Part shown: piece by piece, positions 9,024 to 17,056 of the stretch | Layout: each line of letters opens with the position of its first letter | How positions within the stretch are numbered: the first letter of the stretch is position 1 | Assembly: GCA_026388185.1 (NCBI GenBank) | Contig: JAPLKG010000003.1 | Span: 86,871 to 150,870 of the forward strand | DNA length: 64,000 bases | Source of the DNA: Candidatus Eisenbacteria bacterium | Lineage (GTDB): Bacteria; Eisenbacteria; RBG-16-71-46; JAFGJU01 | Direction of reading: 5' to 3' | Translations under genes and position numbers: made by a program | Notes under the pieces: generated by a model | The model's input: the letters and a program-made list of their open reading frames with translations, nothing else | Databases searched by the model: none | What the model was told of the DNA's origin: nothing

Positions 9024-9128
9024 CGCCTTCGTACACCCTATTTCGCAAGACTCCAATCTTCACTCAGCGAGCAAACGATTGAGTTGCGTGCCTCCAGCGC
9101 ACCTGTTAGTCTCCCGAAGAGTTATGAT

Positions 9129-10658
9129 ATGCGAACATGGACTAACGTAGCATCCAACTGGGCCTTCTATATTCTGAATATTGGAGTCGCATTCTATCTG
9201 TCCCCTTTCATGGTGCGCATGCTCGGCGACTCTCAATTCGGAGCCTGGAATATTCTCGTATCGCTTACAGGATACATGGGTCTGGTGGACCTCGGCGTCA
9301 GGTCGGCCGTGGTCAAGTATGCTGCAGAATATTGGACAAAGAAGGATTATGCAAGGCTGACCTCACAATTCTATTCTTCGTTTCTTTCTCTTGTTATTGG
9401 CGGCTCTGCTCTACTGATAGTTGCTTTGGCTGTCCGCGATCATCTTGCTCTATGGTTGCACATAGGTGGTTCTCTCGGGGAACCATTTGCTGCTTCCATC
9501 CTCCCGAGCGCGTTGGCTGTGATTTTTTCCATAGGCAGCGGGCTAATAAGTGGCTACATGTACGGCGTCGGTCGGTATGACATTTCCAATCTGGCCGGTA
9601 CGATCACGCTTGTTCTTAGAACCACGGGAATTGTACTTGTTCTTTCACGCGGAGGCGGCCTTCCGGAGCTTGCCTGGGTGGTGGCTATCACAGCGATCTT
9701 GAGTTGTCCCGTGTCGTTTCTAATGCTTCGCCCCCTCATCCCATCTCTCAGGTTTTCAACCGCTTCTTTCAGTCTGGAAAGCTGGTTGGAGGTTGTTCGT
9801 TATGGTCTCTTCGCGTTCCTGGCCCAAATAGCGGCAAGAGTCTCGCAAGAGACCGGCAACATCATAGTGGGGGTTGGAGTCTCCACCACGGCTACCGCTT
9901 ACTACGCCATAGGCTTGAGCCTCGCTGGGTATCTGAGAGCCTTCACTTCTTCGGCCGCAGTCGTAGCCATCCCGCTTACCAGTGGAATGGCTGCGCTCAA
10001 AGACATGGCAGGAACGCGGCGAGTCACAATTTTGGGGACAAGATTTGCAGTAGGTTTTGCATTGTGTGGGTTTGTCAGCTTCTTCTTCTTGGGGCGCGAC
10101 TTCCTCCTGATCTGGTTGGGAGAGCGGTTTGCAGCCAACACGTGGCCCACCGGTCTTGTGTTGCTCCTCGCACTTGTATTCCTCTCAGCTCAGCAGTTCT
10201 CGTACGCAATGCTTTTTGGCCGGGGCAAAGCAAAGCTCCCTGCCTTCGCGATGGTGGCCTCTGCCATTGCAAACGTCTTGTTAGGCGTTTTCCTTGTTCA
10301 CAGGGTGGGCGCAATAGGGGTCGCGCTTGGCAGTTTGATTCCTGCGGCTGTAATAGAATTTGGGTTTATCTCATGCTACTTTGCTCCTAAGGAACTGGGA
10401 ACTACGCGGCTCTCTTACCTCAAACAGACATGGGTCGGGCCGCTCATTTGCGTTTTCCCATGTGTGTTGAGCGGCCTATTGGCACGAAGCCTTGTCGAAG
10501 TCTCCGATTTCCCGAGATTGATACAAGCGGGACTATTCTTGCTGGGCGGCTACTTCATTCCCGCATGGTGGATATGTCTGGAAAAGGAAGAGCGAACCTC
10601 AATCGGCACCAAGGTGACAACCCAGCTCAGGCGCGTGGCAACGATCGTCTCAAGATAG
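9129..10658 (+). CDS. Oligosaccharide flippase, Wzx/MATE-like
   Basis: Integral membrane polysaccharide flippase of about 509 residues that would move lipid-linked oligosaccharide across the inner membrane. The N-terminus (NWAFYILNIGVAFYLSPFMV) and the pattern of about 12-14 hydrophobic helices are those of the Polysacc_synt/MVF group; GLVDLGVRSAVVKYAAEY near residue 60 is a typical conserved segment. The longest frame would start at a TTG at 9084; I prefer the ATG at 9129, which begins just before the first membrane segment and has a GAAGAG-like site upstream. It closes the export-type sugar cluster that begins at 3144. Confidence 0.88.
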   Translation: MRTWTNVASNWAFYILNIGVAFYLSPFMVRMLGDSQFGAWNILVSLTGYMGLVDLGVRSAVVKYAAEYWTKKDYARLTSQFYSSFLSLVIGGSALLIVALAVRDHLALWLHIGGSLGEPFAASILPSALAVIFSIGSGLISGYMYGVGRYDISNLAGTITLVLRTTGIVLVLSRGGGLPELAWVVAITAILSCPVSFLMLRPLIPSLRFSTASFSLESWLEVVRYGLFAFLAQIAARVSQETGNIIVGVGVSTTATAYYAIGLSLAGYLRAFTSSAAVVAIPLTSGMAALKDMAGTRRVTILGTRFAVGFALCGFVSFFFLGRDFLLIWLGERFAANTWPTGLVLLLALVFLSAQQFSYAMLFGRGKAKLPAFAMVASAIANVLLGVFLVHRVGAIGVALGSLIPAAVIEFGFISCYFAPKELGTTRLSYLKQTWVGPLICVFPCVLSGLLARSLVEVSDFPRLIQAGLFLLGGYFIPAWWICLEKEERTSIGTKVTTQLRRVATIVSR

Positions 10659-10812: not shown

Positions 10813-10828
10813 TGGCACAGTTCCTGCT
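10813..10828 (+). promoter_or_regulatory. Sigma-54 promoter upstream of the c-di-GMP riboswitch
   Basis: TGGCACA-N4-CTGCT matches the RpoN consensus, with GG at 10814-10815 and GC at 10826-10827 separated by 10 bases. The predicted start near 10839 falls about 28 bases before the riboswitch P1 stem, the geometry expected for a riboswitch leader. Confidence 0.65.
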
Positions 10829-10866
10829 CCCCAAAGGACTTGGCTATCGGCTCTTTCATAGGCTAC

Positions 10867-10972
10867 GTTTCCTTGAAAAGAGCAAACCAGTCGAAAGACT
10901 GGGACGCAGAGCACCGGGGCTGTGAAGAGGCGAAGTCGTCGCCCCTTCTGTTCGCCGAGCCGCCAAGGGAAC
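10867..10972 (+). promoter_or_regulatory. Cyclic-di-GMP-I (GEMM) riboswitch
   Basis: The conserved GEMM-I core is visible: GCAAACC, a GUC-GAAA-GAC hairpin (GAAA tetraloop), then GGGACGCAGAGC, an internal hairpin (GGCGA/TCGCC) and a GCCGAGCC stretch near the 3' end. P1 is formed by GTTTCCTTG (10867-10875) with CAAGGGAAC (10964-10972). The 3' arm of P1 is also the 5' arm of the terminator that follows, so ligand-stabilised P1 should block termination. That predicts an ON switch for the FN3 gene pair at 11031-12676. The core identity is direct from sequence; the switching direction is inference. Confidence 0.85.
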
Positions 10973-11006
10973 TTTACACAAGTTCTTCTGGCGGCTTTTT
11001 TCTTTG
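10959..11006 (+). terminator. Riboswitch-controlled intrinsic terminator
   Basis: GCCGCCA (10959-10965) pairs with TGGCGGC (10989-10995), with inner pairing GGAACTT/AAGTTC, followed by a run of six T. It lies 25 bases before the ATG at 11031, so it acts as an attenuator of that gene rather than as the end of the flippase gene. Confidence 0.85.
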
Positions 11007-11030
11007 GCTCGCCGGGAGGAGGATGACGCG

Positions 11031-11651
11031 ATGAACTTTTCCACTAGAGTACTAATGGGATTGACGACTCTCTTGGTGCTTGCAGCTTCAACGGTAATGT
11101 GCGCCGTGGGCGAAGCAGCGGACTGGAATGCCATCACGCTGACGTGGACGGCCCCCGGCGACGACGGGTCGACGGGTCTGGCCTCGCAATACGACATCCG
11201 GTACTCCGTGTCAAGCATCAGCGGCACTGACACCACAACGTGGTGGAGCCAGGCGACGCAATGTACCGGTGAACCCACTCCCCATACCGCAGGCACCACC
11301 GAGACCTTCATGATCACAGGATTACAGGCGTCCAAGACCTATTACTTGATGGTCAAGACTGCAGACGAGGTGCCCAACTGGTCTGGGTTCTCTAACGTGG
11401 CGGTGCGTGCCACTACCGCAGCGCCCGATACCATCGCTCCGGCCGCGGTGAGAAACCTTGCCCGCCTGGAGCAGAATTTTGGACGGTACGAAGATTTTTT
11501 GCTTGTGCTCGCGGACGCATGTGCTAGTGTGGCTCCCGAGACGCAAGGGAGGGTCAGTTTAGCTCAGGAAGAGACTGAAGTCCTGAGCGGCTGGCCTATT
11601 CTGTTAGAAGAGCCTGCGAGAGACTACAAAACATTCGGCGGAGTCGTGTAA
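11031..11651 (+). CDS. Secreted FN3-domain protein under c-di-GMP control
   Basis: Small exported protein (206 residues) with an N-terminal signal peptide and one fibronectin-III domain of the TWTAPGDDGSTG...YDIRYS type, ending with ADEVPNWSGFSN. The last ~65 residues after AAVRNLA are unrelated to FN3 and contain no sorting module. The ATG at 11031 is preceded by GGGAGGAGG at good spacing. Its stop overlaps the next start (TAATG), so the pair is translationally coupled. Sigma-54 promoter, GEMM-I riboswitch and terminator upstream suggest production when c-di-GMP is high, consistent with a matrix or adhesion role; that role is inference. Confidence 0.8.
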   Translation: MNFSTRVLMGLTTLLVLAASTVMCAVGEAADWNAITLTWTAPGDDGSTGLASQYDIRYSVSSISGTDTTTWWSQATQCTGEPTPHTAGTTETFMITGLQASKTYYLMVKTADEVPNWSGFSNVAVRATTAAPDTIAPAAVRNLARLEQNFGRYEDFLLVLADACASVAPETQGRVSLAQEETEVLSGWPILLEEPARDYKTFGGVV

Positions 11652-12676
11652 TGCGTGCCTTGAGAGGTAGACGTCTTCTCATAGCATTGGTGCTGGCAGT
11701 GTCTCCGATCTTGTCGGCGACGAGCGCAACGTTTTGCCATGCGGCCTGGCCCACTCTCGCCTCCGTCAGCGCGACGAGCGCGACGTTCAAGTGGACTGCT
11801 CCAGGTGATGACGGAACCGTAGGAAGGGCAAGCCAGTACGATCTGCGTTTCTCGAGAAACCAGATTCAAGGCACGGATTCGCTGGGCTGGTGGATCGCGC
11901 CTACCACAGCGACATGTGCGGGTCTCCCGGTGCCCGGCGAACCAGGAAACACGGACAGCTTCGTCGTGGCCGGCCTCGCGCCGGGTAACACCTACTATTT
12001 CATTTTGAGAACCGCCGACGAAGTGCCGAACTGGTCCTTTTTCTCAAACATAGCAGTCGTAACGACTGCCGCCTCGCCGGACACAAACACGCCGGGTGAC
12101 GAGACTCCCCCACCTCCAGTCGCTGGACTTACGGCCACGACAGTGGCGGGCGGCATCATGCTTACCTGGAGCCAGTCTTCTGCCGCCGACGTTGAAGGCT
12201 ATTTGATCTACCGCAGTTATTCCCAGTACGAATACGAAGCGATAACTGCGGAATTAGTGTACGCGACTACTTATCTAGACAAGGACGTCATTGCGGGCCT
12301 GAGCTACAGCTACAGCGTGACGGCCGTTGACAATTCCGGCAACGAAAGCGCCCTCGCGGAGGCAACCTCCGCAACTGCTCCGTCTGTTCCGCCCGTTGCG
12401 ACCAGGCTTTTGGCTCCATTCCCAGATCCGTGTCTGAGCGAGGTCGTATTGAGATACGAGATCGCCGATGACGAGATCCTGGGGACGATTAGGATTTTTG
12501 ACATACATGGGAGACTTGTGCGTGGTCTAAGTGAAGGCAGGATGGAACCGGGTCAGTACGCGGTGATCTGGGACTTGAAGACCGACAACGGAGAGAGGGT
12601 GGCTCCCGGCATATACTTCTGCGTACTTGGCTCGAGGGAACTGAGCAGCGCAAGGAAAATCGCCGTATTGAAGTAG
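11651..12676 (+). CDS. Secreted FN3 protein with C-terminal sorting module
   Basis: Exported 341-residue protein, paralogous to the gene before it. A signal peptide is followed by an FN3 domain (KWTAPGDDGTVG...YDLRFS; ADEVPNWSFFSN), a second FN3 domain (LTWSQSSAADVEGYLIYRS) and a C-terminal FlgD-like sorting module (IRIFDIHGRLVRGL ... APGIYFCVL). The start codon overlaps the stop of the upstream gene. It probably shares the sigma-54/c-di-GMP leader and may form a surface fibre or adhesin with the upstream protein. Confidence 0.83.
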   Translation: MRALRGRRLLIALVLAVSPILSATSATFCHAAWPTLASVSATSATFKWTAPGDDGTVGRASQYDLRFSRNQIQGTDSLGWWIAPTTATCAGLPVPGEPGNTDSFVVAGLAPGNTYYFILRTADEVPNWSFFSNIAVVTTAASPDTNTPGDETPPPPVAGLTATTVAGGIMLTWSQSSAADVEGYLIYRSYSQYEYEAITAELVYATTYLDKDVIAGLSYSYSVTAVDNSGNESALAEATSATAPSVPPVATRLLAPFPDPCLSEVVLRYEIADDEILGTIRIFDIHGRLVRGLSEGRMEPGQYAVIWDLKTDNGERVAPGIYFCVLGSRELSSARKIAVLK

Positions 12677-12724: not shown

Positions 12725-13711
12725 CTACGAACCCGCGATTATTACCACGCTAGCCGCGGCTGACAAGAGGGTGGCCAATCCTGCAAAGCTAAACACGGTC
12801 CCGAGGACACTTCTCTTTCTGGGGACCGTGATGGTGTCACCTGACCTGAGGTCCGGATTGCCCGAAGTCAAACCTTCCTTGAGGAATTTTTCCAGGTTTA
12901 CCTTGAACACGGTGGATGCCGTGGCCGCCCTGCGCACGATCGTCACCTTTTTCAGGTCGGCCGTCTCTGTGGGGCCGCCTGAAGCCACAACGGCGCCCAC
13001 AAGATCCCTCACCATGGCGACATCGTAGGTGCCAGACATTTTTACCTCGCCCAAGATATAGATTACGTAACCTTCGGGAGAGGCGGTGGTCCTGCTTGGG
13101 ACCCTGATCGTATCGCCCGGCTGCAGTTTCACTTGCTCCCTTGCGTCGCCGCTCAGCATTCTCCTGACATCAACCGTGATCGTCTCACCCGTGCCGGCAC
13201 GAATAATCTGCACTGCGTTGAGAAGGGCGCCCGCAGTTGGTCCGCCGGCCTCGCTAAGAACGTCCCAGATCGAAGGAATGGCGGAGAAAGTATACTTGCC
13301 GGGTTTGGCAACCTCCCCTATCACAAATATCTTGCGACTGTTGTACGCGACAACAGTCACGACGGTTTCGTTCACACGGAAGACCGCCAGCCTTCTGCTC
13401 AGATCCTTAGAAAGCTGGGAAGGAGTGAGACCTGCCGCCTTCACGTCTCCCAACAAGGAAAAAGCTATCGTCCCTTCGGGGGTCACGATAAAGGTCCCGG
13501 ACAAATCGGGGCGCTCGCGTGTCACGACCGAAAGAACGTCGCTTGGGCCGATCACATATTCCGGTTCGTCTGCCGCCTCACAAAAGCTCGGCGCGAAAAT
13601 TCCGACAGTCTTGGTGAAGCACGGAAGCACCGGGGCCACGGCTTGCATGAATGGAAGCGACAACATCCAGAAGACCAGGCTCGCAGAGAGGATGATCGGA
13701 AATCTTCTCAT
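12725..13711 (-). CDS. Wza-like polysaccharide export protein (SLBB domains)
   Basis: Outer-membrane/periplasmic polysaccharide exporter, 328 residues. After a signal peptide there is a Poly_export domain (YVIGPSDVLSVVTRERPDLSG, then VTPEGTIAFSLLG) at about residues 52-125, and two SLBB domains starting at KIFVIGEVAKPGKY and YVIYILGEVKMSGTY, each ending in an AGG/SGGPT motif. The C-terminus has a hydrophobic helix. The ATG at 13711 follows GGGGGAGAAAG. It is convergent with the FN3 pair and divergent from the GTPase; a consensus promoter is at 13814-13842. It fits the flippase cluster as the outer-membrane step, although polymerase and co-polymerase genes are not in this window. Confidence 0.9.
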   Translation of the reverse strand: MRRFPIILSASLVFWMLSLPFMQAVAPVLPCFTKTVGIFAPSFCEAADEPEYVIGPSDVLSVVTRERPDLSGTFIVTPEGTIAFSLLGDVKAAGLTPSQLSKDLSRRLAVFRVNETVVTVVAYNSRKIFVIGEVAKPGKYTFSAIPSIWDVLSEAGGPTAGALLNAVQIIRAGTGETITVDVRRMLSGDAREQVKLQPGDTIRVPSRTTASPEGYVIYILGEVKMSGTYDVAMVRDLVGAVVASGGPTETADLKKVTIVRRAATASTVFKVNLEKFLKEGLTSGNPDLRSGDTITVPRKRSVLGTVFSFAGLATLLSAAASVVIIAGS

Positions 13712-15212: not shown

Positions 15213-15319
15213 ATCAGAGTGTTCCATCCCGTTTTGTGGTCAGCCGTCGGATTTTCCTATCCTCTCGGCTAGGGGTTTGTGGGGGTGCTCTTGCCTCCAA
15301 CGCTGAAAGGAGCGTGCCT

Positions 15320-17056
15320 ATGAGAGCGTGTGCGAACGTGTTCTGTGTTGTCCTCTCTGTCTTTCTTGGGATTCTTCTTCTGCCGACCCTCGTCGCTGCC
15401 AGCCCATCGGTGGTCAATGCGACGGCAGCGCTTAATTATGTTGGGGGTGAGCCCGGCAACCAGACGTATCGTTTGGACTACACAGTCGAGAATGTTGACG
15501 TACAACCGTCTCTCTCAGGCTTTGTTGTCTTCTTCGACAGCGACGGTCTCAATCGCTCGGACTTCGTCTCTTACGAAGCCCCTGCCGGCTGGGAAGACGT
15601 GTTTGTTACACCCGAGGCACCGGACGGCTCATGGAACCTGGAGTGGGACGAGCTTTACGGAACTAATCGGATTCTTCCCGGAGGGACCCTGGGCGGCTTC
15701 TCGATAACATTCACCTGGAACGATCCCAACTCTCTGCCCAGCGTCCAGTTCTTCGAGGCCTGGAACGGCGACGCCCACGAGGGCTACACGGTCGTTGTAC
15801 CTGGTTCAAGCCTCCTGGGCGGCATCGAAGGCACGATTGTAACGGTCTGCGGGGGCACGTGCGGCGGTGGTCAAACAACGGCGCCCGCGGCCGGTGTGAC
15901 TGTTGACCTCTTCACAACTGACAACGTGCTGCTTGAAGGCATCCCAACAGACGTGAACGGTCACTATTCCTTCATAGGATTGGCAATCGGCGATTACAAC
16001 ATAACGGTTGTTACTCCGGCCGGCTTTGTGGCCGATCAAGAGACCAAGACGACTTCTGTTTCCATGGGGCAGCCCACCGTCGTTGACTTCCAGCTTAGTT
16101 GTCTGCAGATCAAACCCGACGCCCGAAGCCACGGTTACTGGAAGCACCAGCTCAACTCCTTCTCGTGCGGCAAGTGCGGGAAGTGCGGCAGGGATAAGAC
16201 CCCCGAGAGCCGTCTCGATTACTTGTGTCACAAGTGCGGGAAGTGCGGCAACTGCGGCAAAGGTGAGGCCTACCAGACCTTTGACAATTACTTGTGTAGC
16301 CAGTGCAGCAGGTGCGGGAGGTGCGGCAAGGGTAAGGAACACGAGACCCTTGACGATATGCTCTACTACATCGAAGAGATCGACGCTCACTTCAACAGGA
16401 ACCTGCTAAATCCAGTGAAGATGATCTTGATCGACCCAGAAACTGGAGAAGCTGATCAGCTGAAAGTGCTGGACAAGCTACTTACGGTGAACAGATACAG
16501 CACGATGCGTGATAAGGCCAAGATGCAGGCGCTTGCCCTGTTGCTCAACGTTGTTTCGCTCAAGATCTCTCAGGCTCAAGTCATCAGTGCCGACGGTGCC
16601 AACGTAAGTCAGGCAGTTACGTATGTGAATGAGCTCATCATGGACATGGTAACGTCAAATGATGAGAGAGCGAAGGACATTGCCGAGTACATCAACAACG
16701 GCAGGAGGGTGCCGTCTGGCTGGATCCCGACCAGTACGCCTGTCATCTACTACGAGCGTGACCGGTACGGATCGATAGACTATCTGGGCAAGGGATTCCC
16801 GAACCCATTCTCCAGCACCGCGAGCATTTCCTTCGGTCTCAAGGGTGACGGTGCGGTTCCTGTTGACCTCAAGGTGTTCGACGTGACTGGTAGAGTGGTT
16901 AAGACTCTCGTGAGCGATGCTCTCCAGCCTGGCCAGCACTCGGTGTCCTGGAACGGAATGAGTGAAGAAGGTGCAAAGGTAAGCTCAGGCATCTACTTCT
17001 ACGAACTTAAGACGCCGACGGGTGTCGCGACAGGGAAATTGGTTTACAGGAGGTAG
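15320..17056 (+). CDS. Secreted protein with cysteine-ladder repeats and sorting module
   Basis: Exported surface protein of 578 residues, function unknown. Order: signal peptide (1-27); a ~150-residue N-terminal domain of unknown family (GFVVFFDSDGLNRSDF ... PAGWEDVFV ... GGFSITFTWND); a CNA-B/carboxypeptidase-like beta-sandwich (AGVTVDLFTTDNVLLEGI ... GLAIGDYNITVVTPAGFVADQET); SHGYWKHQ near 269; three Cys-rich repeats of about 22 residues (CGKCGKCG-type, about 280-345); a helical region; and a C-terminal FlgD-like module (PNPFSSTASISF ... SSGIYFYEL). The ATG at 15320 follows AAAGGAG. Regularly spaced CxxC units could bind metal or form disulfides. The perfect promoter upstream suggests high expression. 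Confidence 0.85.
   Translation: MRACANVFCVVLSVFLGILLLPTLVAASPSVVNATAALNYVGGEPGNQTYRLDYTVENVDVQPSLSGFVVFFDSDGLNRSDFVSYEAPAGWEDVFVTPEAPDGSWNLEWDELYGTNRILPGGTLGGFSITFTWNDPNSLPSVQFFEAWNGDAHEGYTVVVPGSSLLGGIEGTIVTVCGGTCGGGQTTAPAAGVTVDLFTTDNVLLEGIPTDVNGHYSFIGLAIGDYNITVVTPAGFVADQETKTTSVSMGQPTVVDFQLSCLQIKPDARSHGYWKHQLNSFSCGKCGKCGRDKTPESRLDYLCHKCGKCGNCGKGEAYQTFDNYLCSQCSRCGRCGKGKEHETLDDMLYYIEEIDAHFNRNLLNPVKMILIDPETGEADQLKVLDKLLTVNRYSTMRDKAKMQALALLLNVVSLKISQAQVISADGANVSQAVTYVNELIMDMVTSNDERAKDIAEYINNGRRVPSGWIPTSTPVIYYERDRYGSIDYLGKGFPNPFSSTASISFGLKGDGAVPVDLKVFDVTGRVVKTLVSDALQPGQHSVSWNGMSEEGAKVSSGIYFYELKTPTGVATGKLVYRR

Follow-up and report, generated by a model that had tools for sequence, protein, structure and literature searches.

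Two genes encoding secreted FN3 proteins reside in an exopolysaccharide locus of the window, i.e. the whole 64,000-nucleotide stretch of DNA analysed, and are preceded by a sigma-54 promoter-like sequence, a GEMM-I aptamer and a terminator hairpin, in this order (Table 1). The presence of two secreted FN3 proteins, proposed in the initial annotation, is supported, FN3 being assigned by Pfam searches, and the flippase and export protein genes at either side identify the locus as one of exopolysaccharide. Judging from their domains and from the locus, the FN3 proteins may have a surface or matrix role. Another secreted protein is predicted at positions 15236–17056 of the window; cysteine motifs of the CGKCGKCG type recur in it, and its tail is T9SS-like.

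Table 1. Features of the locus (window coordinates)
Feature	Position	Strand	Evidence
Polysaccharide flippase gene (Wzx-like), upstream	9084–10658	+	Pfam Polysacc_synt 4.5e-12
Sigma-54 (-24/-12) promoter, very likely, TGGCACAGTTCCTGCT	10813–10828	+	Sequence; TGGCAYN6TGC conserved in relatives; RpoN in genome
Predicted transcription start	10839	+	12 nt after the -12 GC, from sigma-54 geometry
Leader GCUCUUU, complementary to aptamer junction AAAGAGC (10877–10883)	10850–10856	+	Window MFE folds
P1 5' arm, GUUUCCUUG	10867–10875	+	9/9 standard pairs with 10964–10972; covaries in relatives
GEMM-I aptamer core (Rfam RF01051, c-di-GMP-I)	10871–10967	+	50.1 bits
cGAMP-type A, equivalent to Vc2 G20, at the ligand-selectivity position	10881	+	Rfam alignment
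P2 hairpin, CCAGUC-GAAA-GACUGG	10887–10902	+	Sequence, Rfam alignment
G after the stacking adenine (Vc2 A48, own numbering), GCAGAGC variant	10909	+	Locus comparison
P3 stem-loop and junction strand (approximate)	10913–10958	+	
Intrinsic terminator	10959–11003	+	Arms 10959–10974 / 10980–10995, U-tract 10996–11003 (TTTTTTCT)
Putative ligand-pairing C (Vc2 C92)	10963	+	Assigned from its place immediately 5' of the P1 3' arm
P1 3' arm, CAAGGGAAC, common to the terminator 5' arm	10964–10972	+	Pairing, covariation
Ribosome-binding site, AGGAGG	11017–11022	+	Sequence
FN3 protein 1, hydrophobic N-terminal signal-like sequence (MNFSTRV...)	11031–11651	+	Pfam fn3 2.8e-5, just under cut-off
FN3 protein 2, C-terminal FlgD-Ig/T9SS-like tail	11651–12676	+	Pfam fn3 5.1e-9, FlgD_ig 1.8e-6
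Polysaccharide export protein gene (Wza-like), downstream	12725–13711	-	Pfam Poly_export 4.3e-21; NCBIfam TIGR03027 5.1e-40, below cut-off

Promoter, aptamer and terminator of the leader

In the promoter element the GG and GC dinucleotides are spaced 12 nt, as sigma-54 requires, and the consensus TGGCAYN6TGC is matched. This strict pattern is rare: the 128 kb of window strand contain 3 copies, and its background density in all fetched loci is 0.0029 per 100 nt. A perfect copy was found 57–80 nt upstream of the GEMM-I core in 11/11 loci of the host phylum (families f1 and f11) which carry an A at the Vc2 G20 position (hereafter, A20 loci); as the loci are related, the figure denotes strong conservation, not 11 independent events. 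RpoN is encoded in the genome of the window (G000). Geometry, conservation and RpoN support the sigma-54 promoter placed ahead of the riboswitch in the initial annotation, and the element is very likely such a promoter, with a predicted dependence on RpoN and an enhancer-binding protein (EBP). Also the start estimated in that annotation, about 28 nt before P1, agrees with the one in Table 1. The PEP_resp_reg model (NtrC-type family) has 16 strong matches in the genome, none over the model's own cut-off, so that no single one stands out as a PrsR-type activator.

The sole Rfam hit in the window is RF01051 (E 8e-7), which scores above the gathering threshold of 35. Hallmarks of the family are present, namely a GNRA-capped P2, the GCAAAC and GACGCA core, and a closing P1. 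The region is near certainly a GEMM-I riboswitch, with the position and anatomy first assigned to it. At model position 11, where the consensus is G, the window has A10881. This base had gone unnoticed in the first reading; in families f1 and f11, 11/11 GEMM-I loci have A here.

The P1 3' arm, engaged in nine pairs in the aptamer, lies inside the terminator hairpin (10959–10995), which measures -23.2 kcal/mol (ViennaRNA) and is directly followed by the U-tract; C10963 also pairs, with G10991, in the terminator. Changes in the P1 5' arm are matched in the shared arm and in the hairpin 3' arm across 11 loci (host phylum, seven; Nitrospirota, three; Gemmatimonadetes, one), which fall into five sequence types. 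Versions of the shared strand are CAAGGG.AC, CATGGAC/T (once CGTGGAC), CAAAGG, CAGGGA and CAGCA, and both partners follow. This covariation of the three strands supports a model in which P1 and the hairpin exclude each other and the ligand induces read-through. The double use of the P1 3' arm and the ON-switch layout, as annotated at first, are thus borne out by the shared strand, the U-tract and covariation; the element is likely a transcriptional ON switch, in which ligand binding would favour elongation.

As long as the terminator has not been transcribed, formation of P1 in the leader without ligand would cost 6.9 kcal/mol in the window, and 2.7 and 0.4 kcal/mol in sister loci (ViennaRNA). 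The leader GCUCUUU, which pairs with the aptamer junction in window folds, is kept in sister loci L018 and L019, the MFE folds of which do not include the helix. In the modelled ligand-free RNA, the GCUCUUU/AAAGAGC pairing is a possible anti-aptamer helix.

Two alternatives concern the way the leader is transcribed and controlled. The sigma-54 site may be a chance match, transcription coming from elsewhere, for example by read-through of the upstream flippase gene. In its favour, the flippase stop is only 154 nt from the -24 box, but the hypothesis is very improbable in view of the 11/11 perfect sites, in related and not independent loci, set against the low background, and of homologous FN3 genes which carry the site and no riboswitch (see below). 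It is somewhat less improbable, while still unlikely, that the GEMM aptamer is real and most members act through Rho-dependent or translational control via the shared-arm hairpin. A clear U-tract was found in only 3/8 loci linked to FN3 genes; L014, L016 and L017 have none, those of L018 and L019 are weak, and L017 also lacks the shared-arm hairpin. Against this, U-runs follow a strong GC hairpin in the window copy, L013, L015, L099 and L109, and the window hairpin ends ahead of the ribosome-binding site. The intrinsic terminator is the preferred reading.

Distribution of GEMM-I loci and sigma-54 sites

GEMM-I elements were searched for in 47 genomes of the host phylum. Nine carry them, and 12 loci pass. 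Family f1 accounts for six loci in three genomes and family f11 for five loci in five genomes, all A20; the single locus of family f10 (L010) is G20, and no sigma-54 site of the TGGCAYN6TGC form was found in the sequence read. A second GEMM-I of G000 (L001, C10:36730–36804, minus strand) is also A20. A third G000 hit (L003, 20.3 bits) was dropped, as by eye it resembles a group II intron. The idea that strict Rfam filters may hide GEMM elements in f10 was rejected, since no additional convincing copy came up with a model built on the 11 A20 aptamers.

A homologous FN3 gene follows the switch in 8/11 A20 loci, which are all the eight loci not of the C10 type. Homologues of FN3 protein 1 are found behind the switch in both f1 and f11, and in most of the eight loci a second FN3 gene is next; in the f11 locus L026 an XrtA-type deacetylase follows. 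Loci L001, L011 and L012 represent the second A20 GEMM-I of f1, and have a sigma-54 site and their own terminator. A conserved stretch, GAAGCGCAGCGACACA, follows these three aptamers, with no clear gene. An MFS-transporter-like ORF is located downstream of the C10-type GEMM-I in two sister genera.

Sigma-54 sites were found also before homologous FN3 genes lacking any riboswitch, in G039 and at a second G042 locus, and the form GGCAYN6TGC precedes homologous FN3 genes in family f10. The promoter is therefore more widely distributed than the riboswitch.

Among the matches listed, the A20 GEMM-I pattern is common in Firmicutes and other bacteria. The strict sigma-54 consensus precedes 1 of the 80 A20 loci listed by the cross-phylum scan (L066, Nitrospirota), and two further loci of these 80 have a looser form. 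Two A20-pattern loci, L102 and L127, also match the Rfam family c-di-GMP-I-GGC (RF03167).

The G in the GCAGAGC variant, G10909 in the window, is found in 9/11 A20 loci of the host phylum, L001 and L011 having A. It is shared by the Nitrospirota loci and by two more, of which one bears the label Planctomycetota and the other comes from Gemmatimonadetes (carriers include L109 and L125), and all other tabulated A20 loci have A. The feature, chosen after looking at the data and hence a lead rather than a test, may be a second sequence difference useful to tell the ligand class.

Hypr GGDEF enzymes and the ligand

Six GGDEF hits were found in G000. One of them, L005 (C2:75014–76057), features GHLRGS; its best PDB match is 6D9M (GacA; 2.3e-35). 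L005 has Ser at site 348, Phe at site 304, where Arg is usual, and an intact GGDEF, as Hypr GGDEF enzymes do (for the meaning of the two sites see PMC6456294). Its gene heads an XrtA-type EPS operon, in which chain-length, tyrosine-kinase and deacetylase genes are next. Orthologues of L005 were identified in 29/47 genomes of the phylum, all with Ser348, Tyr or Phe304 and GGDEF. In a tree of 97 domains and 163 columns, the site-348 column being included, the S348 domains of the host phylum and of Nitrospirota cluster with GacA in a single group (98/92), and the S348 row L039 falls inside it. By these residues and this branching, L005 is assigned to GacA-type Hypr GGDEF enzymes, predicted to be of the cGAMP synthase type. 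G000 also encodes a canonical D348 GGDEF, L004, and c-di-GMP is thus probably made. Asn occurs at site 348, with GGEEF, in L006 and L223, as in L245 and L259.

A Hypr orthologue is present in 6/8 phylum genomes with an A20 switch. None was found in G045 (78% complete), and in the sister genome G013, which has two A20 switches, searches for S348 GGDEF and for SMODS-type synthases gave no hit. SMODS (DncV-type) synthases, an alternative source of cGAMP, were found in none of the five genomes searched.

Outside the phylum, 31 A20 genomes taken from the matches listed, four of which from Nitrospirota, were searched for GGDEF domains. Among these matches, Ser348 GGDEF was found in 4/4 Nitrospirota genomes, and in 2/4 an FN3-like secreted protein is encoded directly downstream of the aptamer. 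If only the best GGDEF of each genome is considered, Hypr enzymes seem confined, among A20 genomes, to the host phylum; this reading is overturned by the further domains of these four. In 19 other A20 genomes Ser348 was not seen among the top-ranked GGDEF domains read (1–5 per genome); the domain of L320 reads GHPAGD, and is not Ser348. Given such genomes, A20 fits cGAMP but is no proof of it.

The base at the position of Vc2 G20 has been described as G in aptamers selective for c-di-GMP and as A in those selective for c-AMP-GMP (PMC9481103; cf. PMC7266159, PMC9262584), and a GEMM-I G20A biosensor has been used for c-AMP-GMP (PMC11352751). The initial annotation had c-di-GMP as ligand. This is probably wrong, because of the cGAMP-type base A10881 and of the GacA-clade Hypr GGDEF in the genome; on these sequence grounds, the main ligand would on balance be 3',3'-cGAMP.

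The same architecture might instead respond in the cell to c-di-GMP, or to both dinucleotides, A20 being tolerated in an ordinary c-di-GMP ON switch. The natural A aptamer of Desulfobacca binds c-AMP-GMP better, and kept most of its affinity for c-di-GMP, which is little reduced (PMC9481103); the equivalent change in Cd1, G11A, has no large effect (PMC9262584). The D348 GGDEF L004, the lack of a detected S348 GGDEF next to the two switches of G013, and the spread of A20 aptamers in genomes in which no Hypr enzyme was found point the same way. Agreement of the lower P2 pairs (G-C/C-G) with the consensus of RF01051 also counts against the cGAMP account. These points are opposed by the conservation of A20 in 11/11 loci, by the association with Hypr orthologues (6/8 genomes in the phylum and 4/4 in Nitrospirota), and by the only G20 aptamer of the phylum, L010, for which the sequence read shows no such sigma-54 site. 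Sensing of c-di-GMP thus appears rather unlikely, while deserving more weight than the alternatives discussed for the leader. The account that joins a sigma-54 promoter, a cGAMP-sensing A20 ON switch and a Hypr enzyme is favoured with fair, not high, confidence.

A putative two-input gate and related systems

According to the cGAMP account, some EBP would activate the sigma-54 promoter, and the leader would start at about 10839. The Hypr GGDEF of the genome would make 3',3'-cGAMP, to be bound by the A20 (GEMM-Ib-like) aptamer. Bound cGAMP would lock P1 (10867–10875/10964–10972), the terminator 5' arm would be occupied, and the polymerase would read into the FN3 genes; without ligand, the shared arm would join the hairpin 10959–10995, and transcription would stop. 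Expression of the FN3 genes would then obey an AND gate, requiring both EBP activation and cGAMP, at an exopolysaccharide locus. A sigma-54 promoter and a riboswitch in series would make a clean two-input gate.

cGAMP riboswitches and Hypr enzymes have been studied mainly in Geobacter and other Deltaproteobacteria. In the pilM (Gm0970) cGAMP riboswitch of Geobacter metallireducens, a GEMM-Ib element, aptamer and terminator are mutually exclusive, the terminator sequestering the C that would pair with the ligand (PMC9262584). The window element is alike in GEMM-I fold, transcriptional ON layout, sharing of the P1 3' arm and predicted sequestration of the C. It differs in residing in another phylum, in having a conserved sigma-54 promoter, and in its targets, FN3 rather than pilus genes. 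With the c-di-GMP-I riboswitches Vc2 and Cd1 it shares the Rfam family (RF01051) and the three-way junction; in contrast, it has A for their G20, and Vc2 and Cd1 have been described as OFF switches (PMC9262584). The Rfam label c-di-GMP-I should accordingly not be taken as a statement of ligand.

The GacA/GSU1937 cGAMP circuit of Geobacter sulfurreducens (PMC6456294, PMC8835794) is similar in its Ser348 GGDEF, which belongs to the same tree group, and in its riboswitch regulon of surface proteins; a Geobacter GEMM riboswitch upstream of the FN3 protein KN400_1971 has been reported (PMC13194489). The origin of Hypr enzymes has been placed in ancestral Deltaproteobacteria (PMC6456294). No description of the arrangement outside Geobacter-type organisms was found in the literature searched, which does not prove its absence. 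The A20 GEMM-I subtype, in most cases carrying G at the following pocket position, a sigma-54 promoter, mostly FN3 genes, and a GacA-clade Hypr enzyme may form a complete cGAMP circuit in at least two phyla outside Deltaproteobacteria (the host phylum and Nitrospirota), making EPS-linked surface proteins dependent on both EBP and cGAMP; for this wider proposal we hold the chances to be evenly balanced. If true, so conserved a link between aptamer and enzyme, both in the unrelated host phylum and in Nitrospirota, would broaden a view centred on Deltaproteobacteria, and make it testable.

In contrast to the GacA circuit, the enzyme described here heads an XrtA-type EPS operon and is kept by the majority of genomes in a phylum other than that of Geobacter. 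It is found, moreover, in lineages without detectable A20 GEMM. Nearly all family f10 genomes (G018–G037) have the Hypr orthologue, and no A20 GEMM was found in them; the effector of cGAMP in f10, if any, must be something else. Leaders of FN3 genes in this family (L202, L203, L205, L206, L220) feature a sigma-54 site and no GEMM, and mostly contain a CGGCGCCGCAYNCTGCA-like stretch.
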